Position numbers and translations under genes: made by a program. Shown here in pieces: positions 1,630-22,028 of a stretch of 64,000 nt of DNA. Each line of letters opens with the position of its first letter. Positions within the stretch are counted from its first letter, which is position 1. The DNA lies in IMG/VR virus record IMGVR_UViG_3300047356_000838, positions 21,780 to 85,779 of that record; one strand, 5' to 3'. The stretch comes from a virus. Below the pieces are notes generated by a model. That model was given only the letters and a program-made list of their open reading frames with translations. It was not told where the DNA came from and did no database searches.

Positions 1630-2142
1630 TTACCATATAGGACTAGGAATTTGTGTTATTCTGTAACTCTGATATATGCTCATGCGCCTTTTTATAACAG
1701 GACTGCGCATGCCATGTTCATGTTGAGTAGGATTAAACATTAGATATCCACCATTTTTAATGTAAGGAACACTGCGCCACATGCCATCTATGTAACAGTG
1801 GGTACCCATGCTTTCGTCACCTTTGCAAAGATATATCTGTACATTAGCACTTAGATTAGGACTCAGATCAGTGTGTACTTCATTTATATAACCTTCATAG
1901 TCATACCATAACTGTGTGCTATTAGCAAAACACGGTGTAGCAAAATATTCACTGACAACAGATTCAATCTCAGGTAAGTGCAATCCTTTAGCATAGTGAC
2001 CTTCGTCTCTGTTTTCTGCCCCTTGTCCCAGTCGTTGCCAACAATCTCTGTGTTTGAAATGCTTGCGTAGTTTCTTTATTGTTGCTTTATCAAATGCATC
2101 TTCGATGCGATAAAAATCATCATGTAGTTTAATTAACTGCAT
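1630..2142 (-). CDS. 2-oxoglutarate/Fe(II)-dependent oxygenase
   Basis: 170 residues, a typical length for small phage 2OG-Fe(II) oxygenases. The iron-binding HxD is at H90-D92 (EVHTD), a distal histidine lies in QHEHGM (H141 or H143), and the 2OG-binding arginine is in the following KRRMSIYQSYR segment. The order HxD, then H, then R is the double-stranded beta-helix signature. Such enzymes hydroxylate small molecules, proteins or nucleic acids and are frequent in marine T4-like phages. The gene overlaps the carbamoyltransferase upstream by 10 bases and is 3 bases from the gene after it, so it is co-transcribed with the glycan-like set. The substrate is unknown. Confidence 0.75.
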   Translation of the reverse strand: MQLIKLHDDFYRIEDAFDKATIKKLRKHFKHRDCWQRLGQGAENRDEGHYAKGLHLPEIESVVSEYFATPCFANSTQLWYDYEGYINEVHTDLSPNLSANVQIYLCKGDESMGTHCYIDGMWRSVPYIKNGGYLMFNPTQHEHGMRSPVIKRRMSIYQSYRITQIPSPIW

Positions 2143-3620: not shown

Positions 3621-3768
3621 CGTTTAATACCCATGTCTTGCTACAATAATAACACACTGCCACTGGTTTGTCTAGTGTTATTTTTATAGTGAACAGTGGA
3701 TGAGATTTATCTGGACAACTTAGTGTGCAGGGTTCATCAACTGTGAATGTTTCTTTACTTTTCGACAA
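3601..3768 (-). CDS. Small CHCC zinc-finger protein
   Basis: About 55 residues if translation begins at the TTG at 3768; a longer TTG start at 3831 would overlap the reductase gene by 77 bases and is less likely. The core has Cys, a SHPLF segment with His, and a C-terminal CYYC pair. This spacing matches the zf-CHCC domain related to the NDUFS6 subunit of respiratory complex I, common as free-standing proteins in proteobacteria. It overlaps the end of the ferredoxin reductase gene, and a cytochrome c lies about 2 kb upstream. A redox or metal-binding role is plausible but not shown. The start codon is uncertain. Confidence 0.55.
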   Translation of the reverse strand: MSKSKETFTVDEPCTLSCPDKSHPLFTIKITLDKPVAVCYYCSKTWVLNDDNSRT

Positions 3769-4480
3769 ATGCTTTCTCTTGTAGTAAATTTCCTGCACTG
3801 CGCTTACTGCCTTCAGTGAATCCAGTGTCAATGAACAAATTTTTCATGTCTGTATTAAAATCCATGCTGCCACATATCATAACTTTATCGCTGTCAGGTC
3901 TAATAAATTTCCAATATTCATCATTTGCAATATGTTCTTGTATGCGCCCACCAAGCACACCCTGCGCAGGCGTCTCCTGAGTCACAGTTGGATAGTAATT
4001 ATGAATGCTATCACTGAGCATCTCTTGTAAAAAATCATGATAGGCTAGTAGTTCATCATTTGTTCTCACTGACCAGGCTACATTTACTGTCCAAAAATTA
4101 TTATATGTATCTGGATCTCTGAGTATACTAACAAAAGGAGCAATGCCTGTGCCAGTAGCAAATAACCATAAGTTGCCGCCTAGTTCAATGTTAGCAAGTG
4201 TAAGTGTGCCAGTTGTGCGTTCCGCAACTTCTAAACTGTCACCCTGCTTAACATGCTGCAACTTGCTGGTAAGAGGACCGTCCTCAACTTTAATACTGTA
4301 AAACTCTAGGTAGTCATCACCAGGGCCAGAGGTGAAACTATATGCCCTGGTGATGTTGGTGTCAGGCAATCCAATCATTGTGAATTCACCTGCTGTAAAA
4401 CGAAAACTGCGTGGCCGTTCTGTGCGTATGCGAAACAATCTATCTGTATAGTGTTCTACTTCAGTTACATTTACAAGCAT
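3755..4480 (-). CDS. Ferredoxin-NADP+ reductase (bacterial Fpr type)
   Basis: 241 residues, close to the usual length of bacterial Fpr enzymes. The FAD-binding motif RAYSFTS is at residues 45-51, the NADP(H)-binding loop ATGTGIAPF at 108-116, a second nucleotide-binding segment GSMDF lies near 205, and the C-terminus AFVEK resembles the tail that stacks on flavin in the bacterial subclass. The enzyme exchanges electrons between NADPH and ferredoxin or flavodoxin in the cytosol. It could supply reducing power to the eight radical SAM enzymes or the 2OG oxygenase encoded in this window, or tune host redox balance; both are inferences. It overlaps the genes on both sides, within the minus-strand block. 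Confidence 0.88.
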   Translation of the reverse strand: MLVNVTEVEHYTDRLFRIRTERPRSFRFTAGEFTMIGLPDTNITRAYSFTSGPGDDYLEFYSIKVEDGPLTSKLQHVKQGDSLEVAERTTGTLTLANIELGGNLWLFATGTGIAPFVSILRDPDTYNNFWTVNVAWSVRTNDELLAYHDFLQEMLSDSIHNYYPTVTQETPAQGVLGGRIQEHIANDEYWKFIRPDSDKVMICGSMDFNTDMKNLFIDTGFTEGSKRSAGNLLQEKAFVEK

Positions 4481-5590: not shown

Positions 5591-6016
5591 TTACTTTTCG
5601 CCCATGCTCTTAAGATATTCAATAATAGCACCGCGTTTTTCAGCACTCTTTTGTCTGTAGCTCATGTTTGTGCCTTTTACTAACTTCTTACTGTTAGTTA
5701 GCCAGGCATCCAGTAGTTCTTCTGTCCACTGTGGATTCTCATGAGCCCAAGCACTAAACTCTTTACTGTACCTGTTGTAAGCACCTGAACCTCCTAAAAC
5801 AGACAAGGCGGGAAAAGCTGAATTATCGTCTGCTACGCTTGTACCAACGCCGCGATTCATGATGTTCCAAAGATTTGGACCAAGTTTTTTTATGCTAGAA
5901 TCTTGCTCAATACTGTGACAAATACCGCAATTTCTTTTAAATTCATCTTTTCCGTCCAGTGCTAGTGCTTGCCCTGGAACTAACAATACTGCTATTGTTA
6001 ATAATACTTTATACAT
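5591..6016 (-). CDS. Secreted class I cytochrome c
   Basis: 141 residues. The first 18-20 form a signal peptide (MYKVLLTIAVLLVPGQALA) for export to the periplasm. The haem attachment site CGICH is at residues 30-34, a conserved GPNLW loop follows at 46-50, and Met118 in KGTNMSY is the probable axial ligand: the class I cytochrome c layout. Such proteins carry electrons between respiratory complexes in the periplasm. A complete cytochrome c in a lytic phage is unusual; with the ferredoxin reductase it suggests that infection alters host electron flow (inference). It overlaps the APS-kinase-like gene by one base. Confidence 0.85.
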   Translation of the reverse strand: MYKVLLTIAVLLVPGQALALDGKDEFKRNCGICHSIEQDSSIKKLGPNLWNIMNRGVGTSVADDNSAFPALSVLGGSGAYNRYSKEFSAWAHENPQWTEELLDAWLTNSKKLVKGTNMSYRQKSAEKRGAIIEYLKSMGEK

Positions 6017-6489
6017 TATAGTCTCTCCGTGGGTTTTCCTTGCTGTGCAAGTATATAATTATTTACGACTTTTGTAAGTTCTGTATGTGTGTCATTAAAC
6101 CATGTTGCAACATTATAGTTAGCGTTTTGCACTGGTTCAAAAATTGAATCAGTGTGTGCAAATGTAGTGCCTGGTGCTGCAGGTTTAGTGCTTTTACTTG
6201 CTTCCAGTGTATTCATAAACACTGTGTAGTCTGCTGCAAATTCTGCACGGGCTGCACTAGTAGGACAAACAAAGTCTGCTACTGCAATTCTACCTGCCAT
6301 TACTACACCATCTGCTAGGTGACGCATGCGTTGTGCTTGACGTAAACGACCTTCTAAACTAAAGTCCCAGTCATCATACAGTGTTCTTACTTGATCTGCA
6401 TTTAGCCAAATGCCATTTATTAGTTCTGCAAAAGGTTCTGCCAGTGTGCTTTTGCCGCTGCCAGGTAATCCGCATATTAGTATTTTCAT
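6016..6489 (-). CDS. APS-kinase-like P-loop kinase
   Basis: 157 residues. A Walker A motif GLPGSGKST at residues 7-15, WLNADQVR near 28-35 (corresponding to the LDGDNVR region of adenylylsulfate kinase) and FVCPTSAAR (parallel to the FISP..AER segment) place it near CysC-type APS kinases, which phosphorylate adenylylsulfate to PAPS. An adjacent sulfotransferase-like P-loop gene (8831-9487) would fit a sulfation route. It could instead be a related small-molecule kinase, since the DGD aspartate pair is altered. It overlaps the gene upstream by 4 bases. Confidence 0.6.
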   Translation of the reverse strand: MKILICGLPGSGKSTLAEPFAELINGIWLNADQVRTLYDDWDFSLEGRLRQAQRMRHLADGVVMAGRIAVADFVCPTSAARAEFAADYTVFMNTLEASKSTKPAAPGTTFAHTDSIFEPVQNANYNVATWFNDTHTELTKVVNNYILAQQGKPTERL

Positions 6490-7574
6490 CGTAAACTCTC
6501 GAGTTGTCTTTGTTCGTGGTCTCTATCGCTCCAGTGATAATCATAGGTAGCACTGCTTGATCCGCACTCTATTTTATAAATGTCTAGATAGTTGCCCATT
6601 TGTCGCCATATGTCCTGAGCATCCGCTGTTCCAAAACTATTTAGCAGGTCAACTTCTCCCAGTTTTAAATAGCCTAAACTAAGTTTAGGATCATAGGGAT
6701 TGAACTTATTTGCTGCTAACCAATTTTGAAATCCATCTATTTCTTTACAGTGCCAGGGACTGTGAGTATCATACACAACATCATTGCCCCACTCAACATC
6801 AAACTCTCCGCTGTAGTATTGCAAATGTGTAATTGCTTCACATACAGTATCAGTAAGTTCTGGTGCACCCTCATCTCTGTACACTTCCATAAGTGTCTTA
6901 CCAATTTGACACCAGTGCATATATACGCCGCCTAGTTCCCTGTCATAACTATTGTCCAAAAAACCTTGTCTGTGTTCGTCTGTAAGCGTGTGTCTAGGCG
7001 CACGAAGAAATGTTGTGATTTGACTGGGACGAACCCAAAATGGTTCTACTTGTGCTTTGCGTTGACTTAGTACTAAACTTTCTATTTCATGACAAATATT
7101 GTTCAGTTGTCTTACTGCGTATGTTGTTTCCACAGTCATTTGTGATGCATATTCACTTGGATCTTCCACAGTTCCTTGTAGTAATTCAAAATGATTATGT
7201 AGCAAATTCATAACATCATGTTTTAATCTAAGGCCATGATTATTTTTGTTATCAGTGTACAAACCAACGGGATAATTTTCATCAAACCTTACTGTATCCT
7301 CACAGAAGTGTTCTTCAATAACATAATCTAAATTGCTTGTGTTTATAGTGCGTATATGTTTATTAAGATTATTGCAAAGATATTTTAGATCACGCTGTGT
7401 ATAGGGAAAGCCGTGGAAGCAATAGTTTTTTTCTAAGTGCAAACTTTTTTGCAGCACATCTTGTTCAAGTGCCACTATCCAGTCCTGTGCTAGTTGATTA
7501 TCTGCAGGAACAATATTATAATCCGCTAGTTCTCCAGTTTCATAATTTCTTAATACTACTTTAACAGATTTCAT
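6486..7574 (-). CDS. Unknown 362-residue protein next to the radical SAM run
   Basis: I do not recognise this family. The protein is soluble and mixed alpha/beta, with no signal peptide or transmembrane segment. It opens with a short beta-rich segment (KSVKVVLRNYETGELADYNIV) and is rich in His, Asn and Tyr. Candidate landmarks are HFCED, LRAPRHTLTDEH and YDTHSPWHCKEIDGF, which contain several His/Asp/Cys residues that could bind metal. It overlaps the first radical SAM gene by 14 bases, so it is probably made together with those enzymes. It could be a partner, a substrate-binding protein or an unrelated enzyme. Confidence 0.5.
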   Translation of the reverse strand: MKSVKVVLRNYETGELADYNIVPADNQLAQDWIVALEQDVLQKSLHLEKNYCFHGFPYTQRDLKYLCNNLNKHIRTINTSNLDYVIEEHFCEDTVRFDENYPVGLYTDNKNNHGLRLKHDVMNLLHNHFELLQGTVEDPSEYASQMTVETTYAVRQLNNICHEIESLVLSQRKAQVEPFWVRPSQITTFLRAPRHTLTDEHRQGFLDNSYDRELGGVYMHWCQIGKTLMEVYRDEGAPELTDTVCEAITHLQYYSGEFDVEWGNDVVYDTHSPWHCKEIDGFQNWLAANKFNPYDPKLSLGYLKLGEVDLLNSFGTADAQDIWRQMGNYLDIYKIECGSSSATYDYHWSDRDHEQRQLESLR

Positions 7575-8838
7575 CCCAAAACTCTCTTGCTTGTATCGTA
7601 CCCAGTGTATCTCTAAACTTCATACCGCCGCGCAAATTGTCCATGGCTTGCATACGCCACTTGCCTTTGATTCTGCCTTTAGCAAACTCGTCTGGAAACT
7701 CTTCCTCAAAAGTTGGACGAGTTAATAAACTTTTTAACATTTCTCTTATTGTACGATTATCCACGTAGTCAGTCAATAACAATTCATTTACAATATGATC
7801 TAATATTTCTCGTGGAAGAAACAGTGGCGACATTGCAATATCTGGTGTAAATGCAAACGTAACTTTTGCAAGTATGTCTACGTTTAATTCTCTTGCCAGA
7901 CGGCATATGTTTACTATTTCAAATAGTCCAGGCAGTGTAAGTGTAAAGTCAATGCGCATCTTACGTCTATCACCATGAGTATACTCTAACCCTTGTTTAA
8001 AGTTTGCTAACCATTCCTCATAGTTTAATCCTGTGCGTATATACTCACCTACAGCGCCTGTGCCATCTATGCTTGCACATATTTGCCAATCACGAATGTT
8101 GGCAAGTATATCCTTATACAAGTTTACGCCACGATAATCAACACGACTTAGGTTTGTATTATATCGTGCATACAATCCAGGCCCATCACCCAGTTCTATG
8201 ATGCGTTGCATATAACGCCAATGCTGTTCATACATGAGTGGCTCTCCACCTACCCAGTATACTTCTTCAATACGATGTTCTTCAACTGCAGTTGCAAACT
8301 CTGCTTCCACAGTATCCTTTTGGAATTTTTCAATAGCACGTTTAACAGGCTTTTCCATCCAAGGTTCTATTTTGCCTTGCTTGCGAGCTTCTGTTTCCCA
8401 ACTGCTACTAAGCATAGGTCCACACATACGACATTTAAAATTGCACAAGTTACTAAAACGATAGTCCCAACTTACAGGCTTCATGGTTGTATAACCATCT
8501 GCATCTGTGCTAGTAATGACTTGGTCCCATTTGTGCTTAAACAAATGTGTGAAGTAATCTCTGTATACGTCTTGGTTAAGAAGTTTTTTATCACATACTT
8601 GACACGCATCTGGAACTTCATTGTTTAACATTTGTCTACGGATACTGCGAATGCCTGCTCCGTTCCAGTATTCTTCCAGTGTTTCTGGAGTGTACTCGTT
8701 GTCGCCTTCTGCTGTGTCAATGTACTGCGTAAAGCTCTGTGCAGGTTCACGACTGGCACAGCACAGTCGTCTTTCAGTTTGTGGGCTGAGATAGGTGTGC
8801 GTCCATGGCGCCATGCATAGATTTTCAGGTTTAGACAT
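7561..8838 (-). CDS. Radical SAM protein 1 (N-terminal cysteine module)
   Basis: 425 residues from the ATG at 8838; a TTG one codon earlier is also possible. The radical SAM [4Fe-4S] motif CNFKCRMC is at residues 132-139, followed by WVGGEPLMYE, the SAM-binding GGEP segment. Before it lies a cysteine module: NLCMAPWTH near residue 7, RLCCAS near 27 and ACQVC near 79-82, resembling the SPASM/Twitch modules that hold auxiliary clusters but placed at the N-terminus. Enzymes of this group generate the 5'-deoxyadenosyl radical to modify peptides, sugars or other small molecules. It is one of six related genes in this block. The substrate is unknown. Confidence 0.85.
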   Translation of the reverse strand: MSKPENLCMAPWTHTYLSPQTERRLCCASREPAQSFTQYIDTAEGDNEYTPETLEEYWNGAGIRSIRRQMLNNEVPDACQVCDKKLLNQDVYRDYFTHLFKHKWDQVITSTDADGYTTMKPVSWDYRFSNLCNFKCRMCGPMLSSSWETEARKQGKIEPWMEKPVKRAIEKFQKDTVEAEFATAVEEHRIEEVYWVGGEPLMYEQHWRYMQRIIELGDGPGLYARYNTNLSRVDYRGVNLYKDILANIRDWQICASIDGTGAVGEYIRTGLNYEEWLANFKQGLEYTHGDRRKMRIDFTLTLPGLFEIVNICRLARELNVDILAKVTFAFTPDIAMSPLFLPREILDHIVNELLLTDYVDNRTIREMLKSLLTRPTFEEEFPDEFAKGRIKGKWRMQAMDNLRGGMKFRDTLGTIQAREFWDEIC

Positions 8839-9487
8839 CAAAGTATACCATATTATATTGTTGTGTTATATCTTTATATAAATCTTGTTTGTGCGATACA
8901 TGCTCCTGAGCAAGTGCTTTATTCTCAAAAATAGGACATTCATTTAAAAAAAGTCTATCAATTCCTAAACACCATCCTAACCATATGTTACTGTTAATAT
9001 TCCCGAAATATATACTTGGATCTATACAGGTAGTTTTAAAATTTTCAATACATCTGGCTGCAATCTCGTAATCTTTGGTATAGTCTATTTTTGCCTCGTC
9101 GAACATAGTAAAGCAATCTTTGATAAATTTTTCTGGGTCAATATAAAGATCATCATAGTTAATGTGCAAATTTTCTTTATAAAAGATTATTGACGAATTT
9201 GCTACTTGATTAAAAAGCTCAAGTTGCTTGGAGACCTGTTGTGTATGTTGTTTACGGTCAGTTATATTATACTTAATGACAGCGTTTAAATACATATTAA
9301 ATTTATAGTTGCCGCAAAAATACTTACAATTATCTTTTTCATCGTGGGTTAATATAATATCATTACTTCTAATAGATTGATGAAAGTTAGTACCTATATG
9401 CAATTGCTGTGTACTGTCTTGTAACATGCTTAACATATTACTAACAAAGTTTCCGCCTGCACCACCAAGAAAACACAATACCAGCAT
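8831..9487 (-). CDS. P-loop protein, possible sulfotransferase
   Basis: 218 residues. It begins LVLCFLGGAGGNFVSNML; the GGAGGNF loop at residues 8-14 resembles the 5'-phosphosulfate-binding loop of sulfotransferase-like proteins, which lacks the usual GKT. The remainder is helical and Asn/Tyr/Ile-rich with no further motif I can place. It sits between the first and second radical SAM genes with an 8-base overlap downstream. It is noticeably more AT-rich than its neighbours, which may mean separate acquisition. The sulfotransferase call is tentative. Confidence 0.45.
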   Translation of the reverse strand: MLVLCFLGGAGGNFVSNMLSMLQDSTQQLHIGTNFHQSIRSNDIILTHDEKDNCKYFCGNYKFNMYLNAVIKYNITDRKQHTQQVSKQLELFNQVANSSIIFYKENLHINYDDLYIDPEKFIKDCFTMFDEAKIDYTKDYEIAARCIENFKTTCIDPSIYFGNINSNIWLGWCLGIDRLFLNECPIFENKALAQEHVSHKQDLYKDITQQYNMVYFDV

Positions 9488-9489
9488 AA

Positions 9490-10662
9490 TTAAAGCTCAT
9501 AACCAATTACTTTTGCCATCTTAGCGTGACTTCCTGCAAAATTTTGATTACGATACAAGTCCGTTTGGCGCAGTTTAGTATGCAGTGATTCGCCGTTCTC
9601 TTTCCCACCTGAATTAACTATCATTTGTTTTAGTGCAACAATATCATCTTTATATTTGCTGTGTTTTATCTGTTGCTTTTGTAAGTATAACATAACAGGA
9701 CTGCGAGCACCTCTAGGTATACAACTTAGACTGAACTCCCAGGGATCATGCATTACGTTAAAATGTACGCTATTAAAATCCATAGTATCTGCCCAGGTTA
9801 ATATTTCATCCAAGTAATAAATGTTTTGAACGTTCCAGGTACAGCATAACTGCGTACTAATTGGATAGCCACTGTCTCTGAGTGCATGTACCTTTTTTAT
9901 GTTAGCATTACTAGTCTCCCAGTTTGCGCCATAGCGTTCATATTCAAAACGTTCTTCAGTATTGTCTACACTAAATGCTATTTGCACATGTTTAAAATGC
10001 TGCCATATCGTGGGATCTTTTGGATACTGTGTAGTGTTTGTATTGTAATGGATGTCAATATCTTTAGCAAGTCCTCGATCAACTGCACGTTGTAATAGAT
10101 CAAAATGCTCCTTGATCATCCATGGTTCGCCGCCAGTAAATTCAAAATATTTTATTTGTGGCAGTATCTCATCTAACTGTGTCCAAAAATGTTCACTTTC
10201 TCTGGGCCATTGTCCTGCCCGTAACCAAGTACGAGCAATATGATTTTTACTGTCATCTACATAGTCTAATTCTTCTTTTGCCCATTTGCTGCTACTCCAA
10301 CTACCACATATTCTACATTTTAAATTACAAATGTTTCCAAGTTTTAAATCTAAGAAAACAAGTTCTTCGCCATTGTTGTCTTTGTATTCAATGTTAAGAT
10401 GTTTAAACTTTTCCAACATGTATTCACGTTTTGATTTTTTGCCAGCATCTTCTTCACGCCAGCAGTTACGACAACCATCAGGTTTTTCGCCTCTGCGGAA
10501 ACTACGGCGCAGATCACGCATTGTCTTGCTGTTGAACGCATCCTCTAGTGTATGTGTTTTAAGATCAACGTTGGGTATTTCATCAGTATACAAACAACAA
10601 GGGCGTGTTGTTCCCAGCGGAGTTGTTTCAATGCTAATCCATGGAAGTATGCATCTACTCAT
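9490..10662 (-). CDS. Radical SAM protein 2 (N-terminal cysteine module)
   Basis: 390 residues. The radical SAM motif CNLKCRIC is at residues 112-119 and the SAM-binding TGGEPWMIKE follows near 170. The N-terminal cysteine module has CILPW at 4-8, RPCCL at 20-24 and CRNC at 64-67, the same order as in its paralogues. The later part contains AFSVDNTEERFEYERYG, a segment comparable to (A/C)SIDG/DA.G...E.IR in the others, part of the TIM-barrel core. It overlaps the next paralogue by 8 bases. The reaction and substrate are unknown. Confidence 0.87.
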   Translation of the reverse strand: MSRCILPWISIETTPLGTTRPCCLYTDEIPNVDLKTHTLEDAFNSKTMRDLRRSFRRGEKPDGCRNCWREEDAGKKSKREYMLEKFKHLNIEYKDNNGEELVFLDLKLGNICNLKCRICGSWSSSKWAKEELDYVDDSKNHIARTWLRAGQWPRESEHFWTQLDEILPQIKYFEFTGGEPWMIKEHFDLLQRAVDRGLAKDIDIHYNTNTTQYPKDPTIWQHFKHVQIAFSVDNTEERFEYERYGANWETSNANIKKVHALRDSGYPISTQLCCTWNVQNIYYLDEILTWADTMDFNSVHFNVMHDPWEFSLSCIPRGARSPVMLYLQKQQIKHSKYKDDIVALKQMIVNSGGKENGESLHTKLRQTDLYRNQNFAGSHAKMAKVIGYEL

Positions 10663-11962
10663 ATTGTGCTAAACCTTGTAGTTCAGGAAACACTGTATAA
10701 AAGTTTTCTGTACGCACTGCGTCCAACTGCTTGGTAACATGATTAAACTTGGGCAAATGCTGTGTATTGTCAGTATTATTCATAAAACTAATTGTACTGC
10801 GGAAACCATTTGTTGCACGTTGCAAATGATCCTGAGGTTCTAGCCATGCAATGTGCTCTTCTAGTTTTTGTGTTGCTTGTGCTTTTAGTTCTTTGGGTAA
10901 ACAATCTGCACGATACCAATCAGGTGATTGCAGTATGTTTACGTTTAAGTCCTGTGCTTTGAGCAATCCACTGTCTACCCACGCTCTATGAAAATCAGGC
11001 ACATGTAGTACATTCATTAAACTTACTGTTGGACTAATGTAAAAGTCTACGTCAGGACACACTTCTAGCATGCGTTGTCTGTTGTGTACAATTTTATTCC
11101 AGTCACACCCACTGCGCATTAGTTCTGCACGATCTCCACTGGCATCCAAACTTGCGCCAATACTAACACTATCAAACATACCCCAATAGTCCAGCACATC
11201 TAAATCTTTATACAGCGTTTCATTAAAGTTTGTATTATAAATTAATTTAACATCAAAACGTTTGCGACGAACAAGTTCTTTAAGTATGTTATAGTGTTCC
11301 TGCATAATCAGAGGTTCACCACCTGCAAAATATATTTGCTCTATGTGGTCAATGTGTGGGATCATTTGTTCCCATATATCAGTCTTATTCTTACCTGCCC
11401 ATTCTATACGCTTGTGATTAGGTGCTTGTCCATGCATTTTAACATGATCATCATACCACAAACTGCTAAACATAGGACCGCAACTGCGACACTTTAGATT
11501 ACACTGATTACTAAAACGAATATCCCAGTATACTAGTTCAAAGTCTGGATTAACACCCTGATCTACTTTGTCAATGTGATGCCCAAAGTGTTTGTTGTGG
11601 CTGTTTCTCATACTAAAGAAGCCTTGCGCTTCCTGTTCGTAGCAGCGTGTGCATTCTTTGCAAGGTTTGTCAGCAAGCATGCGTTCACGCATTTGGACAT
11701 AATTTGACCCGTTCCAAATTTCCTCTAATGAATTATCTCGCATGTTGCCGATAGGGTGTTCCATTTCAGCCAAACAACAAGGGTATGCTTCGCCTGTTGG
11801 AAATCCGTGTATGTGCGTCCATGGAATCATACAAAAGTACTTGCTTTCCATTAAACGCTTTTGCTGGTCTTCACGCAAACTTTCTAACTTAACAAACACA
11901 GGACGTCTGCTGTTGTAGTCATATGTTTCGTAATATTTGTCTGTTTTTTCAGAGCGACTCAT
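10655..11962 (-). CDS. Radical SAM protein 3 (N-terminal cysteine module)
   Basis: 435 residues, with a charged N-terminal extension of about 40 residues before the cysteine module: FCMIPWTH near 43, YPCCLAE near 60 and CKECTRC at 101-107. The radical SAM motif CNLKCRSC is at 154-161, and FAGGEPLIMQEHY near 211 binds SAM. IGASLDASGDRAELMRSG is the conserved barrel segment. Its DIRFSNQCNLKC context is very close to DYRFSNLCNFKC of radical SAM protein 1, so these two form a subgroup. It overlaps both neighbours. The substrate is unknown. Confidence 0.87.
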   Translation of the reverse strand: MSRSEKTDKYYETYDYNSRRPVFVKLESLREDQQKRLMESKYFCMIPWTHIHGFPTGEAYPCCLAEMEHPIGNMRDNSLEEIWNGSNYVQMRERMLADKPCKECTRCYEQEAQGFFSMRNSHNKHFGHHIDKVDQGVNPDFELVYWDIRFSNQCNLKCRSCGPMFSSLWYDDHVKMHGQAPNHKRIEWAGKNKTDIWEQMIPHIDHIEQIYFAGGEPLIMQEHYNILKELVRRKRFDVKLIYNTNFNETLYKDLDVLDYWGMFDSVSIGASLDASGDRAELMRSGCDWNKIVHNRQRMLEVCPDVDFYISPTVSLMNVLHVPDFHRAWVDSGLLKAQDLNVNILQSPDWYRADCLPKELKAQATQKLEEHIAWLEPQDHLQRATNGFRSTISFMNNTDNTQHLPKFNHVTKQLDAVRTENFYTVFPELQGLAQYE

Positions 11963-13268
11963 ACCATTCCTCTAGTTCTGGAAACGCCCGTGCAAATGTG
12001 TGATTGCGGCGTACATCATATTGTGTGTAAAACTTTTTAAAGTCGTTGTGCAAGCGTGGCATTTCAAATGCTTCGTTGTGTGGTTTCTCAACCACTTGCA
12101 AATACTCAATTAATCTGTCCAGTTGTCCACGCTCCCAGTCTTGCATGTTAGATAAGTCAAGTTGTTTTAGTCTACTAACACAAGCATCTTTAATAGGTTG
12201 CGGTAACACCAAACAACTCTGGAAACTTGGAAAGCGCAGTATATTATAACTCATTACTGCAAACCCATTGCCAAATAGAGTTCTTGCACGAAGTATTTTT
12301 TCAATCATATCAGGCAGTGTTGGTAGACACAGCGCATTAATTGTCATCATACAGTGTGTGTCAATATCTGCAAAGTGTAGTTTTAACAAGTTTTTCCACC
12401 ACTGGTCGAAGTCTAATCCGTCACGGATGTATTCAGCACTGTATCCTGTTGCTTCCATACTAGTGTAAATATTTAAACTAGGCAAGTGTGTTCTTGCTTC
12501 TACTAATCTATCTATTAGTTCAGGTTTGCCGCCGAGGTTACTATTAATAGCAAGACCGGTCTGACTTTTATCTGCGTTTAGTTTAAACCAATCAAACAAT
12601 CTCCAAAGTTCTGCACTCATAATAGGTTCACCGCCTGTGATGCGCAGTTCACGCAGTGTGCGATGTAGGTCAGTGTCCCACCATTTAAAAAATGCTTCTA
12701 CATATGGATTTGTTTCGCCGAACTTGTACAGTTGGTTCTTATCGTGCGGATGTGTGAAGTGGTTACGTCCATCACTTTGTAGATCATTGTAACTGCCTTT
12801 TTGTTTTATATCTTTTACCCATGTTGTGCTAAATGCGGGATTGCAATAACTGCAAGCAAAGTTGCATGTTCTATCAAAGGCAATCTCAAGGGTAATGAGA
12901 TCAACATCTTCATCATGTGGTGTAGCGTATGCATTTTTAAGTTCCTCACTAGTATATATCTTGGATTTGTAAACACGGTCACTTATAAATGACTTGCCCA
13001 TGTCCTCAATTTTCCAACAGTATTCACAACCACTGGGACGTTCACCGCACTGCATTTGTCTACGCTGTTCTTTTTTCTCAGGTGTGTTGTGCAACAGTTT
13101 TGGATTTTCTAGCACTAGTTCTGGATTGACTAGATGTGCTGGCGGATGATGACAACTGGTAGTCATACCGCTGCCAAGCCATATAGTAGCGTTGTACCAC
13201 TTGGCTGCGCAGAAACTTGCGCTCTTAGTGTCTAAATGGTTTGCTTTAAATATTAGATCTGTTTGCAT
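11949..13268 (-). CDS. Radical SAM protein 4 (N-terminal cysteine module)
   Basis: 439 residues from the ATG at 13268; a GTG at 13277 is an alternative. The radical SAM motif CNFACSYC is at about residues 135-142, with RITGGEPIMSAELW following. The N-terminal module differs from proteins 1-3: FCAAKWYN, SCHHPPAH and CEYCWKIED replace the PW and CC elements. The same variant occurs in radical SAM protein 5 (FCLAKW, SCYHPP, CNYCWNIE), so 4 and 5 are a recent pair by duplication. Both also share a FARAFPELEEWYE-type C-terminal end. It overlaps protein 5's gene by 23 bases. The substrate is unknown. Confidence 0.86.
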   Translation of the reverse strand: MQTDLIFKANHLDTKSASFCAAKWYNATIWLGSGMTTSCHHPPAHLVNPELVLENPKLLHNTPEKKEQRRQMQCGERPSGCEYCWKIEDMGKSFISDRVYKSKIYTSEELKNAYATPHDEDVDLITLEIAFDRTCNFACSYCNPAFSTTWVKDIKQKGSYNDLQSDGRNHFTHPHDKNQLYKFGETNPYVEAFFKWWDTDLHRTLRELRITGGEPIMSAELWRLFDWFKLNADKSQTGLAINSNLGGKPELIDRLVEARTHLPSLNIYTSMEATGYSAEYIRDGLDFDQWWKNLLKLHFADIDTHCMMTINALCLPTLPDMIEKILRARTLFGNGFAVMSYNILRFPSFQSCLVLPQPIKDACVSRLKQLDLSNMQDWERGQLDRLIEYLQVVEKPHNEAFEMPRLHNDFKKFYTQYDVRRNHTFARAFPELEEWYESL

Positions 13269-14613
13269 ACTGTTCACACTGTTGCCAAAATGTTTTCATC
13301 TCTGGAAAGGTTTCTAAAAAATTTGTTTCTCTGCGTCGGTCATGTTCACTAAAGAATTTGTAAAAATCTCCACGCTTGCGTTCTACATCTGTAGTACCTT
13401 GTAACATCCAATCCAAATCACGTTGCATTTTTAGCACTTCATAGTCTTTGAATCCATGCATTTCGTGCATGTTATCTTGCATATAGCGTATACATTCTTG
13501 CATTACTATTTGATATTCCATGGGCAATATTTGCATGCTTTGCCACTCAGGAGTATAGAGTAAAGGTGTATCAAACCATATACGCTGATAGGTATCAGTG
13601 TAAGTTTTACGCAAGTATACAATGTATTCTAACAATTTTTTAAGAGAAAGTATACTTAAATTATTCATTGTAATGATGAATGTCAGGCTACTACGACGTG
13701 GAACATCTCGAACAAATTCTTCACATCTATTTATAGCAAGATCAAAGTCCAATCCATGACGTATATATTCTGCTTGTTTACCCCAGGTGTCCAAACTAAC
13801 AAACTGCATAAAGTGTTCAATTTGCTCACCTTCGCACAGGCGTTGCACATAACCTTTGTACTTGTCCCATACCTTAGCGTCAACACTAAAATTACTTGTG
13901 GTGTTAAGATGTAGATCAGGCTTTGGATTATCTAACACATAGTCAAACACACGATATGTGTTTGGATCCATTGTGGGCTCACCGCCTGTCATTCTGAAGT
14001 GTTTAAGATCCTTGTATAGAGCTGGCCACCATCGCCAGAAGGCTTCGCGGTAGGGGTTGTCTTCTCTGTTGGGAATAGCCCGTCTTTTGCCCACAAAGTG
14101 TTGGGGGTCATTGTGCGGTACAGTTGTGGGCCATGCTCCGTGTTCCTTTGATTCTGCTGTCCAGGTGCTGCTAAACTGAGGACTGCAATAACTGCAACTA
14201 AGATTACAAACATTATTAAAATTTACCTCTACATAACTTGGGTTAACATCCGCAAGTGGGTTGTTAACTATTTCATCAAAACTCTGCATGGCCCAGGGCT
14301 CGCCGCTGCGGTAATGACGGTCACTTATATTGCCTTGTGATTCTATGTTCCAACAATAATTACAATCACTGCACTTAGTTCCCTCCATCATTTCTAGTCG
14401 ACTTTGTTTTTTGTGTGCAGTGTTGTGTAACGCACTGGGATTTTCTGCTAGTGGTTCCACAGGAATAGGATGCAATGGTGGATGGTAGCAACTGTTTGTA
14501 TGACCAGTTGTTAAATGCAAACTAACTTGTTTCCATTTTGCCAAACAAAAACTATCACTTACTGTTGCAAGTTTATCTTTTGCAGTTAGTGCATCGTTGT
14601 AATAATCACTCAT
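13246..14613 (-). CDS. Radical SAM protein 5 (N-terminal cysteine module)
   Basis: 455 residues. FCLAKW near residue 22, SCYHPP at 41-46 and CSDCNYCWNIE at 81-91 form the N-terminal cysteine module; the radical SAM motif CNLSCSYC is at 136-143 and MTGGEPTMDPNTY binds SAM near 210. FVSLDTWGKQAEYIRHGLDF matches the barrel segment of its paralogues. The C-terminal segment EHDRRRETNFLETFPEM parallels QYDVRRNHTFARAFPEL in protein 4, confirming the close pair. It overlaps protein 6's gene by 4 bases. The substrate is unknown. Confidence 0.87.
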   Translation of the reverse strand: MSDYYNDALTAKDKLATVSDSFCLAKWKQVSLHLTTGHTNSCYHPPLHPIPVEPLAENPSALHNTAHKKQSRLEMMEGTKCSDCNYCWNIESQGNISDRHYRSGEPWAMQSFDEIVNNPLADVNPSYVEVNFNNVCNLSCSYCSPQFSSTWTAESKEHGAWPTTVPHNDPQHFVGKRRAIPNREDNPYREAFWRWWPALYKDLKHFRMTGGEPTMDPNTYRVFDYVLDNPKPDLHLNTTSNFSVDAKVWDKYKGYVQRLCEGEQIEHFMQFVSLDTWGKQAEYIRHGLDFDLAINRCEEFVRDVPRRSSLTFIITMNNLSILSLKKLLEYIVYLRKTYTDTYQRIWFDTPLLYTPEWQSMQILPMEYQIVMQECIRYMQDNMHEMHGFKDYEVLKMQRDLDWMLQGTTDVERKRGDFYKFFSEHDRRRETNFLETFPEMKTFWQQCEQYANRSNI

Positions 14614-15569
14614 ATACCATCTCGCATATATTCTTGAATAGCATATTTTTCAAACGGCAAACTACTCCATATATCTGTGTTTTTAAGTTTGTCTTGTAAC
14701 AATATAAAACTCATTGTGTGCGGAAATAGCCAACTTTCATCATTATTCAATAAACTTCTAAGGTGAGCATTATCTGGAATATATTCTATAGATTCTTTTA
14801 GGTCTTTTGGTAATACATTTACACACAAATAATCAGGCTCTGCTAGTATGTTATAAACAACAGGATATTTGCTCCATTGTTCAATTTCTTTTAAGTTAAA
14901 AATATTCAATACACTTATAGTTGGATTTACTGTGACTTTTGCATACATTGCTGCAGTGTGTAAATTATTTGTCCACTTGTCCCATTTAGTGCCGTAACGC
15001 AATTGTTCTCCTAAGGGACCAATTGCATCCATACTAGCATTGACCGACACATGTTTAAATCTAGGCCAGTATATATCAATATTTTTTATTGATAACAGAT
15101 TACTATTATAATGTAATGTAACACTACTAGGATCAATGATACTATCTAATACTTGCCAGTGTTTGGGATTGATAAGTGGTTCTCCTCCAGCAAAGTAGAT
15201 ATGTTCTACATTTGTTAAATCTACATCAAAGTCTGTGCTTACAAATTTTGTTTCACCTAATCTATCAGCCCATTTACTACTGTAATAACTATTACAAATT
15301 GTACATTCTAGGTTACAAAGATTATTGTTTCTTACATCTAAATATCGTATAGCATAAGTCTCATTTTTTAAACTATCAAAATTATCTTTGTACTTTGGTC
15401 CAGGATGCCTACAAGCGTCACATCCTGCTCCATCTCTTAAACTATGCCATGGATCTTTCCAGTCAAGGTCATTAATATCCAAAAATAAATTGTGATCAAA
15501 TAAACAGCAAGGACTTACTTTTCCATCTGGATGAATACAGAATCCGCTATCAAAAGCACCACAATCCAT
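14610..15569 (-). CDS. Radical SAM protein 6 (short form)
   Basis: 319 residues, the shortest of the six. It starts directly with the cysteine module: MDCGAFDSGFCIHPDGKVSP then CC at 21-22 and CDAC at 50-53. The radical SAM motif CNLECTIC is at 85-92, and YFAGGEPLINPKHW near 135 binds SAM. The FCIHPDGKVSPCC layout is the closest in the set to a classical SPASM motif. The coding sequence is more AT-rich than proteins 3-5. The start overlaps the stop of the upstream glycosyltransferase gene by one base. The substrate is unknown. Confidence 0.85.
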   Translation of the reverse strand: MDCGAFDSGFCIHPDGKVSPCCLFDHNLFLDINDLDWKDPWHSLRDGAGCDACRHPGPKYKDNFDSLKNETYAIRYLDVRNNNLCNLECTICNSYYSSKWADRLGETKFVSTDFDVDLTNVEHIYFAGGEPLINPKHWQVLDSIIDPSSVTLHYNSNLLSIKNIDIYWPRFKHVSVNASMDAIGPLGEQLRYGTKWDKWTNNLHTAAMYAKVTVNPTISVLNIFNLKEIEQWSKYPVVYNILAEPDYLCVNVLPKDLKESIEYIPDNAHLRSLLNNDESWLFPHTMSFILLQDKLKNTDIWSSLPFEKYAIQEYMRDGI

Positions 15570-16480
15570 TACCAGCCTTCGTGCTTTCTAATTGCATCTA
15601 TTTCCAGTGTCATAGGTCCTGCTGCACAGTATGTTTGTTCATAATACTTCTTAAAAAAAGCACTTTCTTTAATTCCTATATCTAACATAGGCAATCCAAG
15701 TCTGCTCAGAAGCGCACCGTTAATCTCAGGCATGTTCATAATATCATATTCGGAATATATCTTATCTAAATTTTCAAACCACTGTACTTGTGTATGATCC
15801 CAGTCAGTAAGCATGGTCATGTATGTACCCATTCGTGCACCATTAATTGCATCTGAACCGTGTTCTGCATCTCTGCCAACGTTATGCCACACGCTTAATC
15901 TATCAAAGTTTGACTTATGTACCATATCTTCAAATTCAATTAGTGTAGGTTTTGTGCCATTGCGTAAACACATCTTTACACCTTCACGGAATCCTGCACG
16001 CCAAGCATGTTTAGCACTGCCATTGGGATAGGTTGTGCTATACACATTGTTCATTGCTAGATACTTTGGATCATAACAAAACTCTACATCATTTTCATCA
16101 GTGCCATCACTTGCTTCATGTGTGCGCATGTTGTTTACGAATGTGCGTGTCCAGCAACTCATACCACCATTGCCATACATAAGTCCGTTGATGTTGTTTA
16201 CTGCTTTCCAACGAAATACACAATCCTCATGTTCTGGTTTAATATCCAGTGTAATATCAAAAAACTCTGGATAAGGCATGTTGTCACCATCAATGAGGAT
16301 GAAACGTTCTGTATCACTTGCGTCTGCGGCTGCTTTGTGTGCAGCATCACTGCCCTGTACATTATCAACACGCTTTGCCCAGGGCACCATGTTTTGTATC
16401 TTAATCCAGAATTCTTCTTTCTTAGGTTCGTCGTAACTAAGATAAATGCAGTCTAGGTCTGCTACATCAACTTTTGACAT
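15569..16480 (-). CDS. Glycosyltransferase-like protein with DGD motif
   Basis: 303 residues. It starts with an alpha/beta nucleotide-binding pattern (LDCIYLSYDEPKKEEF) followed by PWAKRVDNVQGSDAAHKAAA and FILIDGDNMPYPEFF; the D64-G-D66 motif fits the metal-binding DXD of GT-A glycosyltransferases. A WRAGFREGVKM motif near 185 is shared with the duplicated protein at 418-1626, which lacks the DGD. It overlaps the small gene upstream by 14 bases and is the first gene before the radical SAM run. Donor and acceptor are unknown. Confidence 0.65.
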   Translation of the reverse strand: MSKVDVADLDCIYLSYDEPKKEEFWIKIQNMVPWAKRVDNVQGSDAAHKAAADASDTERFILIDGDNMPYPEFFDITLDIKPEHEDCVFRWKAVNNINGLMYGNGGMSCWTRTFVNNMRTHEASDGTDENDVEFCYDPKYLAMNNVYSTTYPNGSAKHAWRAGFREGVKMCLRNGTKPTLIEFEDMVHKSNFDRLSVWHNVGRDAEHGSDAINGARMGTYMTMLTDWDHTQVQWFENLDKIYSEYDIMNMPEINGALLSRLGLPMLDIGIKESAFFKKYYEQTYCAAGPMTLEIDAIRKHEGW

Positions 16481-16748
16481 ATGGATTTCTCGCTAGTTCT
16501 TGTTGTGTTAATCCCCAAGTTCGATGTTTAGGAGGACTAAATGTTAGTTTATTTTCTACTACTGTGTAGTCGTCACGTTTACTATTACACGCATCAAATT
16601 CATCTTGTGTAATAACGATATAATCATGTTCTAATACGTCATATGATATATCTATTATACAGCCTTGATCATCATAATACAACTTATGTATTTTTTTAGT
16701 ACTAGGTGGTTTTAGTTGATCTGCTACTTCAAAGAATGCGCTGCTCAT
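16467..16748 (-). CDS. Hypothetical 93-residue protein
   Basis: Not recognised. The product has a KLYYDDQGCIIDISYDVLEHDYIVITQDEFDAC-type middle (beta-strand rich) and ends in a proline- and tryptophan-containing tail (SPPKHRTWGLTQQEL). It overlaps the glycosyltransferase genes on both sides by 14 and 20 bases, which argues for a real, co-translated gene. It has no signal peptide, membrane segment or catalytic motif that I can see. Confidence 0.5.
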   Translation of the reverse strand: MSSAFFEVADQLKPPSTKKIHKLYYDDQGCIIDISYDVLEHDYIVITQDEFDACNSKRDDYTVVENKLTFSPPKHRTWGLTQQELARNPYVKS

Positions 16749-17556
16749 ATCTCGTTATTAACTCCTGTGTACAAAAATCTTTGTGAAAATAATGAAATGG
16801 TCTAGTTTGTGCATATCCGTTTACACAAAATATCATATCATCTGTTAGTGCCCAACTACAAGCATCCCGCCAATCATCGTTACTAAAATCATTGATATGC
16901 TGCTTCATGTGTGTAAATGTAGGATAATCTAATGTAGGCATATAGTAATCTTCGCTGCCTAATTCAGTTGCAGCAATACTCATAAACACATCTGTATCTG
17001 CAGTGTTGTGTCTACAGTTACTTAGCACACTTAATTTGTATATATCAAAGTTATCAAACACACGTTGACTTGTTTCAAAAAATTGTTTTGTTTCAGCACA
17101 GTGTCTAAAATACATAAAACCATTATAAGCATTGCATAAATTGTTTTCATGCCACATCCGTCTGTGATGTTTATCTTCTACTATTTCACCTCGATAGTTG
17201 CGCACCTGTGTAGTAAAACAAACATTCTTAAGTCTAGCACCTGCCCACCAGTGATCAATATTGCTTGTAATGAGCATGTCACTTTCTACTTTAAATGTTT
17301 CTTTGTAAGGAGTTAAGTCCCATGCACGATTTTCATTTTCAAAAGGATGCATAGTATCAATTTGGATTATCTCGTCAAATACTTTGCGGTGATTGTCTGT
17401 AAGCAAGTCCGCTGTACTAGGATCTACAACAACACAAAAATCATTTATTTTACAATAAGTTTTGACACTCAAAGCAAGCAGATATGCACAATGAAGATAT
17501 TGTTCTCCTTGTGCAAAAGTTAGATATCCTTGCGCTTTATTTTTTTCTATGCGCAT
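16729..17556 (-). CDS. Glycosyltransferase, GT8-like
   Basis: 275 residues. The N-terminal part GYLTFAQGEQYLHCAYLLALSVK, then FCVVVDPSTADLL and VFDEIIQID, has the order seen in GT-A glycosyltransferases such as the GT8/glycogenin-like group: a short strand, a helix with LA.S.(K/R), then a VVVD strand. KVESDMLITSN near residue 93 may supply the acidic metal-binding pair, and NAYNGFMYFRH plus NTADTDVFM are later family-like blocks. It is packed between two other genes with 10- and 20-base overlaps. It probably builds or decorates a glycan in the cytosol; donor and acceptor are unknown. Confidence 0.65.
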   Translation of the reverse strand: MRIEKNKAQGYLTFAQGEQYLHCAYLLALSVKTYCKINDFCVVVDPSTADLLTDNHRKVFDEIIQIDTMHPFENENRAWDLTPYKETFKVESDMLITSNIDHWWAGARLKNVCFTTQVRNYRGEIVEDKHHRRMWHENNLCNAYNGFMYFRHCAETKQFFETSQRVFDNFDIYKLSVLSNCRHNTADTDVFMSIAATELGSEDYYMPTLDYPTFTHMKQHINDFSNDDWRDACSWALTDDMIFCVNGYAQTRPFHYFHKDFCTQELITRYEQRIL

Positions 17557-18308
17557 AGTTTATCCGCTACTTCCAGCAAACTGCGTTTGTTCATTACATG
17601 TAAATCGCCTGTGTAGCGTACAACGTTATGTGATTCTTTGTGTTCATACTTGAGTAGCCAACGCCCATTTGCATAATCCAATACACTGTCACTACTGCTA
17701 AGTGCAGGCAATGCATAGTCAAATGTTGCTGTGTTTGCATATCCGTTGCATATTTGATGTGCAATGCTCATTGCAAAATCATTGCGAAACGGTGCTTTAC
17801 TAAACCCAAACAATTCTGCATAGTAAGCGTAGTTTTCATATACCATACGCCAAGCATCAAATATACGCTTTGCACGTTCCGTTTTTTTAAAATACACAAC
17901 TGTTGCCCAACGCATTTCAAACCAATTCTGCGTCATAAAACGGTCATGTCTAAACACATCATTGCCAGAGACATCCCAACTTGAATTATGGCAAACAAAG
18001 TCGTGATCACACCCAAAATATTTTGCTAGTGCGTCACACTGTACAATATAATCACTGTCAATCAGCAATGTTTCGTTGTATGGACTAAGTTCATAGGCAC
18101 TGTATCTGCCTATGTTGTTCCACTCTGTACCTTCTAGTTCGCCGTTAGGGTAACGAAATGTGCGAAAGTTTTTTTGTGCAGGATCTAGTTTAACTACGGT
18201 ACTAGGTACACCTAAATGCTTTTCTGCTAGTCGTGCGCATGTTTCACTTAGACGTAGATAGTCTAACTGTGCGCTTTCACTGTACAGTATTAGTATGCCT
18301 TTAGACAG
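17547..18308 (-). CDS. Glycosyltransferase, probable CTG start
   Basis: The frame encodes an N-terminal glycosyltransferase pattern (GILILYSESAQLDYLRLSE, ARLAEKHLGVP, YNETLLIDSDYIV with a DSD metal-type motif) well upstream of the first ATG/GTG/TTG candidate at 18068, which would cut the domain in half. Upstream the frame stays open only to a TAA at about 18336, and the only usual-type initiator between is a CTG at 18306-18308, with an AGGGG ribosome-binding site six bases before it. This gives MSKGILILYSE and 253 residues. The gene overlaps the preceding one by 8 bases. Either CTG is used or the true start codon is mutated. Confidence 0.6.
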   Translation of the reverse strand: MSKGILILYSESAQLDYLRLSETCARLAEKHLGVPSTVVKLDPAQKNFRTFRYPNGELEGTEWNNIGRYSAYELSPYNETLLIDSDYIVQCDALAKYFGCDHDFVCHNSSWDVSGNDVFRHDRFMTQNWFEMRWATVVYFKKTERAKRIFDAWRMVYENYAYYAELFGFSKAPFRNDFAMSIAHQICNGYANTATFDYALPALSSSDSVLDYANGRWLLKYEHKESHNVVRYTGDLHVMNKRSLLEVADKLCA

Positions 18309-18645
18309 AGACGTCCCCTGCTTTGCGTTTTGTTTTTAGTTCAGTGTATTCATTGTGCCAATCATTGTGTACTTCATTCCAACGAGCATCACATAGTTTT
18401 ACAAGTTCTACACAGTCAATTTCAATTGGTGTATCATAACTATCTGGTATAATGCATTTAGTGCTTTGTTGAAACAGGCCTGCATTTGCATTTTTCATAT
18501 ACAAATAGTTAAGCAAGGTCATATCTACACGGAATAGCCCACCATTATATGTAACAGTGAGCCGTTGCTGTTGTTGCTCTTTAAGAGTCTGTTTTTGTCG
18601 GTTGAGCTCGAATCTTTCGCGAGCATATGTTTCTAGATTTTCCAT
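18301..18645 (-). CDS. Hypothetical protein at the head of the accessory operon
   Basis: 114 residues from the ATG at 18645 (MENLETYARERFELN). A longer TTG start at 18681 would lie on the -35 box of the promoter at 18653-18681 and is unlikely. The ATG has no ribosome-binding site and lies seven bases past the -10 box, so its mRNA would be essentially leaderless. The protein has a charged, glutamine-rich N-terminal helix (KEQQQQR), then a TVTYNGGLFRVDMTLLNYLY segment. I do not recognise a function. It ends inside the start of the glycosyltransferase gene. Confidence 0.55.
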   Translation of the reverse strand: MENLETYARERFELNRQKQTLKEQQQQRLTVTYNGGLFRVDMTLLNYLYMKNANAGLFQQSTKCIIPDSYDTPIEIDCVELVKLCDARWNEVHNDWHNEYTELKTKRKAGDVSV

Positions 18646-18652
18646 TCTTGAT

Positions 18653-18681
18653 ATTATAACAGGCGCCCAAGCGCCTGTCAA
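18653..18681 (-). promoter_or_regulatory. Perfect sigma70-type promoter for the accessory operon
   Basis: Read on the minus strand: TTGACA (18681-18676), a 17-base spacer, then TATAAT (18658-18653). Both hexamers and the spacing are exact consensus. The spacer is itself almost entirely a palindrome (see the hairpin entry). Transcription should begin about 18646, one base before the ATG of the 114-residue gene. It is the only clear promoter upstream of the long block of overlapping minus-strand genes down to 418. Confidence 0.8.
18659..18678 (-). terminator. Hairpin within promoter spacer, possible terminator or operator
   Basis: A perfect inverted repeat, ACAGGCGC, four-base loop, GCGCCTGT, lies 27 bases beyond the stop of the tail-fibre gene at 18705. 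In late transcripts it would form an 8-bp GC-rich hairpin, followed by UAUAAUAU rather than a clean U-run, so termination is plausible but not certain. In DNA the palindrome occupies the spacer of the promoter at 18653-18681 and could be an operator. Confidence 0.5.
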
Positions 18682-19829: not shown

Positions 19830-19844
19830 TTAGTTTTTCTCCGA

Positions 19845-21299: not shown

Positions 21300-21330
21300 T
21301 TTTATTTGCTCCGCATGTATTCGTTAGTAT

Positions 21331-21338
21331 TATTTATC
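21331..21338 (-). promoter_or_regulatory. Candidate T4-type late promoter box (GATAAATA)
   Basis: On the minus strand GATAAATA, one base off the T4 late consensus TATAAATA, lies 32 bases before the ATG at 21299. It matches the boxes before other late genes in this window, which differ only in the first base. Confidence 0.45.
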
Positions 21339-21358
21339 CACTTTATAAACTTAGTATA

Positions 21359-22024: not shown

Positions 22025-22028
22025 AGTT

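Follow-up and report, generated by a model that had tools for sequence, protein, structure and literature searches.

A cassette of six radical SAM genes in a T4-like phage

The 64,000-base stretch analysed here (the window; bases 21780-85779 of the 85,779-base IMG/VR virus record IMGVR_UViG_3300047356_000838) carries a run of genes for radical S-adenosylmethionine (SAM) enzymes, which a preliminary description of the sequence had reported as six paralogues in near-tandem. By sequence, the window is assigned to a T4-like phage: jumbo phages encode homologues of the baseplate wedge protein at 37234-40824, about 35% identical to it in alignments that span as much as 94% of its length. The open reading frames (ORFs) of the window were called mechanically, and the virus records with which it was compared are fragments. 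All six radical SAM ORFs are present on the minus strand, and we name them R1 (the gene at 7561) to R6 (the gene at 14610), so that the order of transcription is R6-R5-R4-R3-R2-R1. As had been noted, adjacent ORFs overlap or abut, save for one extra gene between R2 and R1:

7561-8841, minus strand: R1, N-terminal-twitch radical SAM enzyme (NF033640, 299.9 bits; start codon uncertain, TTG)
8831-9487, minus strand: inserted protein of 218 amino acids, without family match
9490-10662, minus strand: R2, N-terminal-twitch radical SAM enzyme (NF033640, 321.3 bits; PF13186, 5.3e-7 at residues 4-68)
10655-11962, minus strand: R3, N-terminal-twitch radical SAM enzyme (NF033640, 406.6 bits; N-terminal PF13186, 1.7e-13)
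11949-13277, minus strand: R4, N-terminal-twitch radical SAM enzyme (NF033640, 296.1 bits)
13246-14613, minus strand: R5, N-terminal-twitch radical SAM enzyme (NF033640, 312.9 bits)
14610-15569, minus strand: R6, short and optional N-terminal-twitch radical SAM enzyme (NF033640, 177.8 bits)

The family shared by these enzymes, NF033640 of NCBIfam (twitch domain-containing, or N_Twi, radical SAM protein), has a curated cut-off of 170 bits. A profile search placed R1-R6 all above it, R6 only barely, with E-values from 3.5e-52 to 1.2e-121; a chance origin of these matches is excluded. R1-R5 cover nearly the full model, and the match of R6 is without the N-terminal part. The CxxxCxxC and GGEP motifs first read in each gene form invariant columns in a six-way alignment, and for R1-R5 the core cysteines are invariant also across the 43-49 phage orthologues of each group. 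The same orthologues show that the N-terminal cysteine module, described earlier as unusual, is real and invariant within groups (C..CC..CxxC in R1-R3, C..C..CxxC in R4 and R5), but it is not novel, as it defines NF033640. PF13186 (SPASM) matches at the N-terminus above its cut-off in R2 and R3 and more weakly in R1 and R6, and in a profile of R3, residues 30-98 align with the twitch domain that BtrN carries at its C-terminus (PDB 4M7T, E 0.0014). Both matches fall at the N-terminus, so that the module is a permuted twitch domain preceding the core; in R4 and R5, this domain is indicated by the cysteine pattern and the NF033640 match alone. The invariant N-terminal cysteines would suffice as ligands for a second [4Fe-4S] cluster.

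The inserted gene at 8831-9487 had been taken for a P-loop gene. The gene is there, but the P-loop finds no support in Pfam, PHROG or NCBIfam, none of which returned a match. Homologues occur at 10 loci, a number that includes several copies of this genome, and elsewhere the slot is empty or holds genes of the F19 type (see below). The two more radical SAM genes that had been seen elsewhere in the window, at 54948-56513 and 57029-58117, are likewise present, with an architecture unlike that of R1-R6: the former has the radical SAM core domain only, the latter a C-terminal SPASM-like domain.

Five orthologue groups in a fixed order

Gene order was surveyed across phages. With R3 as the first query, viral contigs yielded 69 loci, 52 of them distinct (with the window counted in and a Vibrio phage left out). 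The order R5-R4-R3-R2-R1 is kept in 45 of the 52. Since this first locus set had been picked by R3, the contigs were rescanned with R1 and R5, which confirmed at least 554 and at least 583 stretches, respectively, as relatives; these may contain paralogues and near-duplicate contigs, so that the figures are not contig numbers. Among the best 80 loci per seed, the order recurs in 62 of the R1-seeded and 48 of the R5-seeded ones, incomplete contigs counted in. All five groups are found in 41 of 42 sufficiently long R5-seeded loci, and R4-R1 in 67 of 68 sufficiently long R1-seeded loci; in a minority, R1 and R2 are exchanged, giving the order 54312.

The phylogenies agree with this picture. A tree of 274 proteins resolves R1, R2, R4 and R5 as a single clade each (support 1.0, 0.998, 0.982 and 0.948), and R3 weakly so; the R1 clade holds 44 phage sequences, and the optional R6 has 3 orthologues only. 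An IQ-TREE phylogeny of 115 proteins that includes bacterial sequences gives the five groups values of 100, 99, 97, 100 and 100 in the Shimodaira-Hasegawa-like approximate likelihood ratio test (SH-aLRT). Of the subtypes first proposed, the pairing of R4 with R5 stands, the two being related groups that share a branch (support 100). R1 and R3, by contrast, do not form a close pair, R1 occupying a long branch of its own. R1-R5 are five ancient orthologue groups older than the phages, and a local expansion of paralogues was rejected on the same grounds.

These results change how the cassette is to be seen. The earlier impression of an exceptional run is not borne out: the five-gene set is apparently standard equipment in many uncultured aquatic T4-like phages, which make up a large group, and its groups also occur in Bdellovibrionota (below). 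The idea of an expansion selected for several radical steps survives in that five non-redundant groups are kept together, but there is no expansion peculiar to one phage. Because five distinct orthologue groups have stayed together in the same order even in phages that have diverged widely, they probably carry out several non-redundant radical steps on one product. That five diverged enzymes stay together points to five non-interchangeable steps, and hence to a serial pathway; the persistence of their order in such diverged genomes strongly indicates a single multi-step pathway. The first suggestion of serial modification of one glycan or peptide is therefore upheld as to a probable single product, and the surrounding genes point to a glycan.

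These genes are all but missing from a set of 50,697 annotated phage records: R5, F4, F6 and F11 (the last three being cassette partners introduced below) have no match there, and R1 and R3 match at about 22-24% only, in Vibrio phages K566/K567, R3 also in the single-cell contig AG-345-D19; orthologues of R1 and R5 were not found in the phage isolate collection. The Vibrio phage K566/K567 locus, from a jumbo isolate, has five divergent N_Twi-like genes and might serve as a culturable model.

Several conserved partners resemble sugar-handling enzymes

In transcription order, the conserved unit comprises the fibre-like genes F21, F14 and F10, then F11, F7, F6, F9, F4, R5, R4, R3, R2, R1, F8 and F5. 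The features flanking the radical SAM genes of the window are:

18705-23993, minus strand: fibre-like proteins F10, F14 and F21 and a protein of 654 amino acids, conserved neighbours directly upstream of the cassette
18653-18681, minus strand: sigma70-type promoter upstream of F11, TTGACA-N17-TATAAT (12 of 12 positions), its spacer a GC-rich inverted repeat
18301-18645, minus strand: F11, about 114 amino acids, first cassette gene (the TTG start listed at 18681 is the -35 box)
17547-18317, minus strand: F7, GT8-like paralogue of F6 (start codon uncertain, open frame up to 18317)
16729-17556, minus strand: F6, GT8-like glycosyltransferase, by a joint F6/F7 profile
16467-16748, minus strand: F9, small variable protein between F6 and F4
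15569-16480, minus strand: F4, GT-A-fold glycosyltransferase-like protein, by its predicted fold and an invariant DxD
6486-7574, minus strand: F8, conserved protein adjoining R1
2133-3620, minus strand: F5, NodU/NolO-type O-carbamoyltransferase (PF16861, 9.2e-51; PF02543, 6.3e-35; phrog_1601, 1.9e-91)
418-1626, minus strand: F18, homologous to F4 in its second half (by mutual matches of the two profiles)

Neighbour frequencies were taken from those of the best 80 loci that have enough flank. In R5-seeded loci, F11, F7 and F6 are each present in 68/68, F4 in 63/68 and F9 in 53/68; in R1-seeded loci, F5 is present in 66/66, F18 in 52/66 and F8 in 51/66. The AlphaFold2 (AF2) model of F4 (predicted local distance difference test score, pLDDT, 84.6) has GT-A glycosyltransferases as its leading PDB matches, with the rhamnosyltransferase RmlT at the top (E 3e-4); D64 and D66, which form the DxD pair of F4, are invariant. 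Pfam and PHROG gave no match for most neighbour proteins, and F8 has none in Pfam, PHROGs or PDB sequences. F10 (18705-19829) contains an S74 chaperone domain (PF13884, 3.1e-6). Judged by sequences and models, both traits of a glycan-modification cluster, glycosyltransferases (F4, F6, F7) and a sugar tailoring enzyme (F5), appear to be present here, and a glycan is the substrate that we favour because the radical SAM enzymes have as constant partners a sugar-type carbamoyltransferase and proteins resembling glycosyltransferases.

Other neighbours are less constant. F12, F13, F16, F17, F19 and F20 form one superfamily, optional members of which are inserted preferentially at the R5-R4 and R2-R1 junctions; we suspected them to be GT-B glycosyltransferases, a suggestion that found no family or PDB match. 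At 8 loci there is F22, which on inspection of its sequence resembles GDP-fucose synthase. The window also has a cytochrome c with a signal-like N-terminus (5591-6016, minus strand) and a ferredoxin reductase-like FAD/NAD reductase (3755-4480, minus strand), both in a phage; a role as redox partners was set aside, their homologues occurring at only 4 and 12 loci, respectively, partly copies of this genome. Genes for iron-sulfur (Fe-S) cluster assembly were also rejected as constant partners, with PF01521 in 4/40 and PF01592 in 2/40 records (fragments).

The surroundings bear on two other kinds of substrate. The first is a nucleotide, made into a viperin-like chain terminator or into hypermodified DNA that would act against host or rival polymerases or against restriction. 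This is in keeping with a weak similarity of the cores to viperins, including weak core-only PADLOC hits, with the carbamoyltransferase, and with the kinase-like P-loop gene at 6016-6489 (minus strand; APS-kinase/AAA_33-like, with homologues at 39 phage loci). However, viperin scores reach at most 28.5 bits against the NF038283 cut-off of 180, and together with the PADLOC scores this led us to reject membership of the viperins or of a defence system. To our knowledge, viperins have no twitch domain. The hypermodification variant is weakened in turn, as HMUDK_hel (5-hydroxymethyldeoxyuridine-kinase-type) was found in 0/25 large records, where a control search likewise gave 0, and thymidylate-synthase-type genes in 5/25 only. 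Overall, we regard a nucleotide product as very improbable.

The second is a peptide or protein, such as F9, F11 or a fibre, into which the enzymes would introduce carbon-carbon or thioether bonds or epimerised residues in the manner of ribosomally synthesised and post-translationally modified peptides (RiPPs), the glycosyltransferases being a separate matter. SPASM/twitch enzymes frequently act on peptides, and the cassette does include a small variable protein, F9. The AF2 model of R3 (pLDDT 83) matches the folds of CteB, anSME, viperin, SuiB and BlsE, the best being sactipeptide and sulfatase-maturing enzymes. On the other hand, no conserved core peptide resembling a precursor came to light, F9 is not recognisable as a precursor, and its 53/68 compares with the near-constancy of F4, F6, F7 and F5. 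A peptide product therefore strikes us as improbable, if less so than a nucleotide, and a glycan stays the favoured substrate.

Counterparts of the cassette in Bdellovibrionota

Most matches in bacterial genomes are lone R3-like genes, R3 being the group richest in bacterial relatives. The Bdellovibrionota stand apart: 81 of 241 genomes (G013-G250) have N_Twi genes over the cut-off, often in many copies, all five groups R1-R5 occur in their chromosomes, and some of their proteins fall inside the R1 clade. One cluster (L081) reads R4, R1, R2-like, R3, R2-like, R5, R4 and adjoins genes resembling obgE and a ribosomal protein gene; two others (L158 and L192) read R1, R2-like, R4, R4, R5. Five further loci (L073, L074, L075, L077 and L122) were not counted as bacterial; they look like cassette-bearing phage contigs binned into metagenome-assembled genomes of five different taxa.

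F4 accompanies these enzymes in cells as well. Strong F4 matches were obtained in 15 of the 241 Bdellovibrionota genomes, all 15 of them N_Twi-positive as compared with 81/241 overall (P 3e-8), and F4 usually adjoins an N_Twi gene, which indicates that F4 and the N_Twi radical SAM enzymes are linked in cells as in phages. A longer block is found at L184 (11389-19513), where a fibre-like gene, F11, F7, F6, an F9-like gene, F4 and N_Twi genes lie together a few genes from pheT, close to the end of a contig that also has trmD. In some bacterial clusters (L096, L097 and L082), R3-like genes sit near what sequence inspection suggests are carbamoyltransferase, sugar epimerase and glycosyltransferase-like genes, a second reason for favouring a glycan.

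Stand-alone SPASM-like proteins of 114-123 amino acids with a GWxCWAG motif lie beside radical SAM genes at L156 (3776-4120), L165 (10044-10400) and L184 (19142-19513). We had considered them as RiPP precursors and rejected this, since their matches are to SPASM-like domains in other radical SAM proteins; they look like parts of split radical SAM enzymes.

A consensus promoter separates the cassette from the fibre genes

The promoter before F11 is the single site in the window with the exact consensus at 17-base spacing, a looser scan adding three sites that match at 12 of 12 positions but have spacers of 16 or 18 bases. Its 17-base spacer forms a terminator-like hairpin (fold z-score -5.2), which may end transcription of the fibre genes. 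Relatives retain the promoter despite altered letters in the stem, as in GGGCTTTCGAGCCC or GGGGCGAAAGCCCC. Promoter scores of at least 10 occur in 52/93 upstream regions of F11 as opposed to 4/93 shuffled ones, and are rarer upstream of R1-R5.

A different motif precedes genes of the virion. The T4-type late motif [TA]ATAAAT[AG] lies 34-61 bases before four structural genes, at 40824, 48458, 60249 (minus strand) and 60324 (plus strand), and a scan of the window found none at the cassette start; in the window overall, its frequency is not above chance. A sigma70 site also precedes a recombination-type nuclease gene (50498). From the sigma70 promoter before F11 and the late motifs before structural genes, we infer that the cassette would be expressed early or in the middle of infection by the host RNA polymerase.

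These observations bear on the target of the pathway. The same glycan line might decorate the virion itself, on its tail fibres or on some other protein, with the fibres as acceptor. In most loci, the cassette follows fibre-like F21, F14 and F10 along with F11, and the L184 block unites a fibre-like gene with F11, F7, F6, an F9-like gene, F4 and N_Twi genes on a chromosome. Set against this are the consensus promoter and hairpin placed between the fibre genes and the cassette, the late-type motifs kept for structural genes, and the bacterial chromosomes that carry the radical SAM groups and F4 without fibre genes. We consider a virion target unlikely, though the strongest of the alternatives to the host envelope, which is favoured because the operon opens with a host-type sigma70 promoter and not a late one.

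Two side observations concern the remainder of the window. An ORF of 4402 residues (24026-37234, minus strand) lies between the baseplate and fibre genes, in the position of pelagimyophage VrlC. Two amidinotransferase-like proteins (49349-50467 and 51508-52644, plus strand), the first matching HsvA (E 8.7e-6) and AGAT (3.7e-4), have homologues at 57 loci; F15, seen in many loci, is likewise amidinotransferase-like.

A proposed serial radical pathway to a carbamoylated glycan

Taken together, the data suggest one conserved operon encoding a serial radical SAM line for a carbamoylated glycan, more likely destined for the host surface than for the virion. As a whole, we hold this statement to be about as apt to be right as wrong; the broader one, that a glycan on either the host surface or the fibres is remodelled by radical chemistry, we consider quite probable. 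In the proposed scheme, R5, R4, R3, R2 and R1 would act in series on a single product. The core [4Fe-4S] cluster of each would cleave SAM, leading to abstraction of a hydrogen, and a cluster in the N-terminal twitch domain could take up or return an electron, as when BtrN-type enzymes oxidise an alcohol on a sugar-like ring. The putative glycosyltransferases F4, F6 and F7 (GT-A, GT8-type) and the O-carbamoyltransferase F5 would work with the radical SAM enzymes to yield a radically remodelled, carbamoylated glycan, which might alter the envelope of the infected cell, so that superinfection is blocked or receptors are changed.

Several points weigh against this scheme. The cassette directly follows the fibre genes, which fits a virion target. 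The fold matches of R3 are mixed, the peptide maturases CteB, anSME and SuiB and viperin standing alongside sugar-nucleoside enzymes, so that the fold does not settle between glycan and peptide. The GT8 assignment of F6 and F7 comes from a weak match of their joint profile to the GT8 enzyme glycogenin-2 (E 0.0068). In bacteria, clusters L081 and L158 are mostly without an obvious glycosyltransferase partner close by, and the glycosyltransferase signal beside N_Twi genes is modest, at 5/130 neighbours in a Pfam survey without a control set. No NF033640 enzyme with a known substrate was found in open-licence papers, and the argument from timing has sequence motifs as its sole basis.

It is tempting to speculate further that a large set of uncultured T4-like phages and the Bdellovibrionota share an unrecognised, ordered five-step radical SAM line for a new class of carbamoylated glycan, rearranged by radical chemistry, that remodels the envelope of the occupied bacterial cell; we advance this tentatively, as a possibility that falls well short of likely. 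An unusual sugar coat, if made, would have no counterpart among the coats that cultured phages are known to make. With a defined gene set, the product can be sought directly, and the role of phage radical SAM genes becomes testable, in a cassette apparently standard in a large aquatic phage group absent from culture and with parts common to Bdellovibrionota.

Comparison with known systems

We found no description of the cassette in the open-licence literature, including radical SAM genes together with phage fibres, a carbamoyltransferase or Bdellovibrio, nor anything on the chemistry of NF033640; nowhere there do the six genes appear as unrelated imports with known separate functions. R1-R6 belong to NF033640, whose name gives no function and does not describe a fixed operon of five subgroups. 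With BtrN (2-deoxy-scyllo-inosamine dehydrogenase) they share the twitch domain, with one core and presumably one auxiliary cluster, but this domain is C-terminal in BtrN and lies ahead of the core here, a circular permutation. The SPASM peptide maturases CteB, SuiB and anSME share the radical SAM core fold and are the best structural match of R3; they have a C-terminal SPASM domain and a peptide or protein substrate, whereas the SPASM-like domain of the cassette enzymes is N-terminal.

Among phages, the T4-like ocean genome TARA_ERS488813_N000010 carries 12 radical SAM genes alongside genes for Fe-S assembly (PMC5332604). It resembles the phages studied here in its many radical SAM genes, and some of these also carry IscU or A-type carrier genes, but most records show no Fe-S assembly gene, and that paper did not analyse orthology, order or function. 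Pelagimyophages differ from one another in radical SAM gene cassettes within a host recognition cluster, also with glycosyltransferases, for which modification of the host O-chain was suggested (PMC7029224). As in the first case, the genes were mentioned without further analysis, and the cassettes are variable only, with no fixed five-gene order, F4 partner, promoter or bacterial counterpart; in their T4-like setting, their post-fibre region and their combination of GT8/glycosyltransferase and radical SAM genes, they resemble the cassette of the window.

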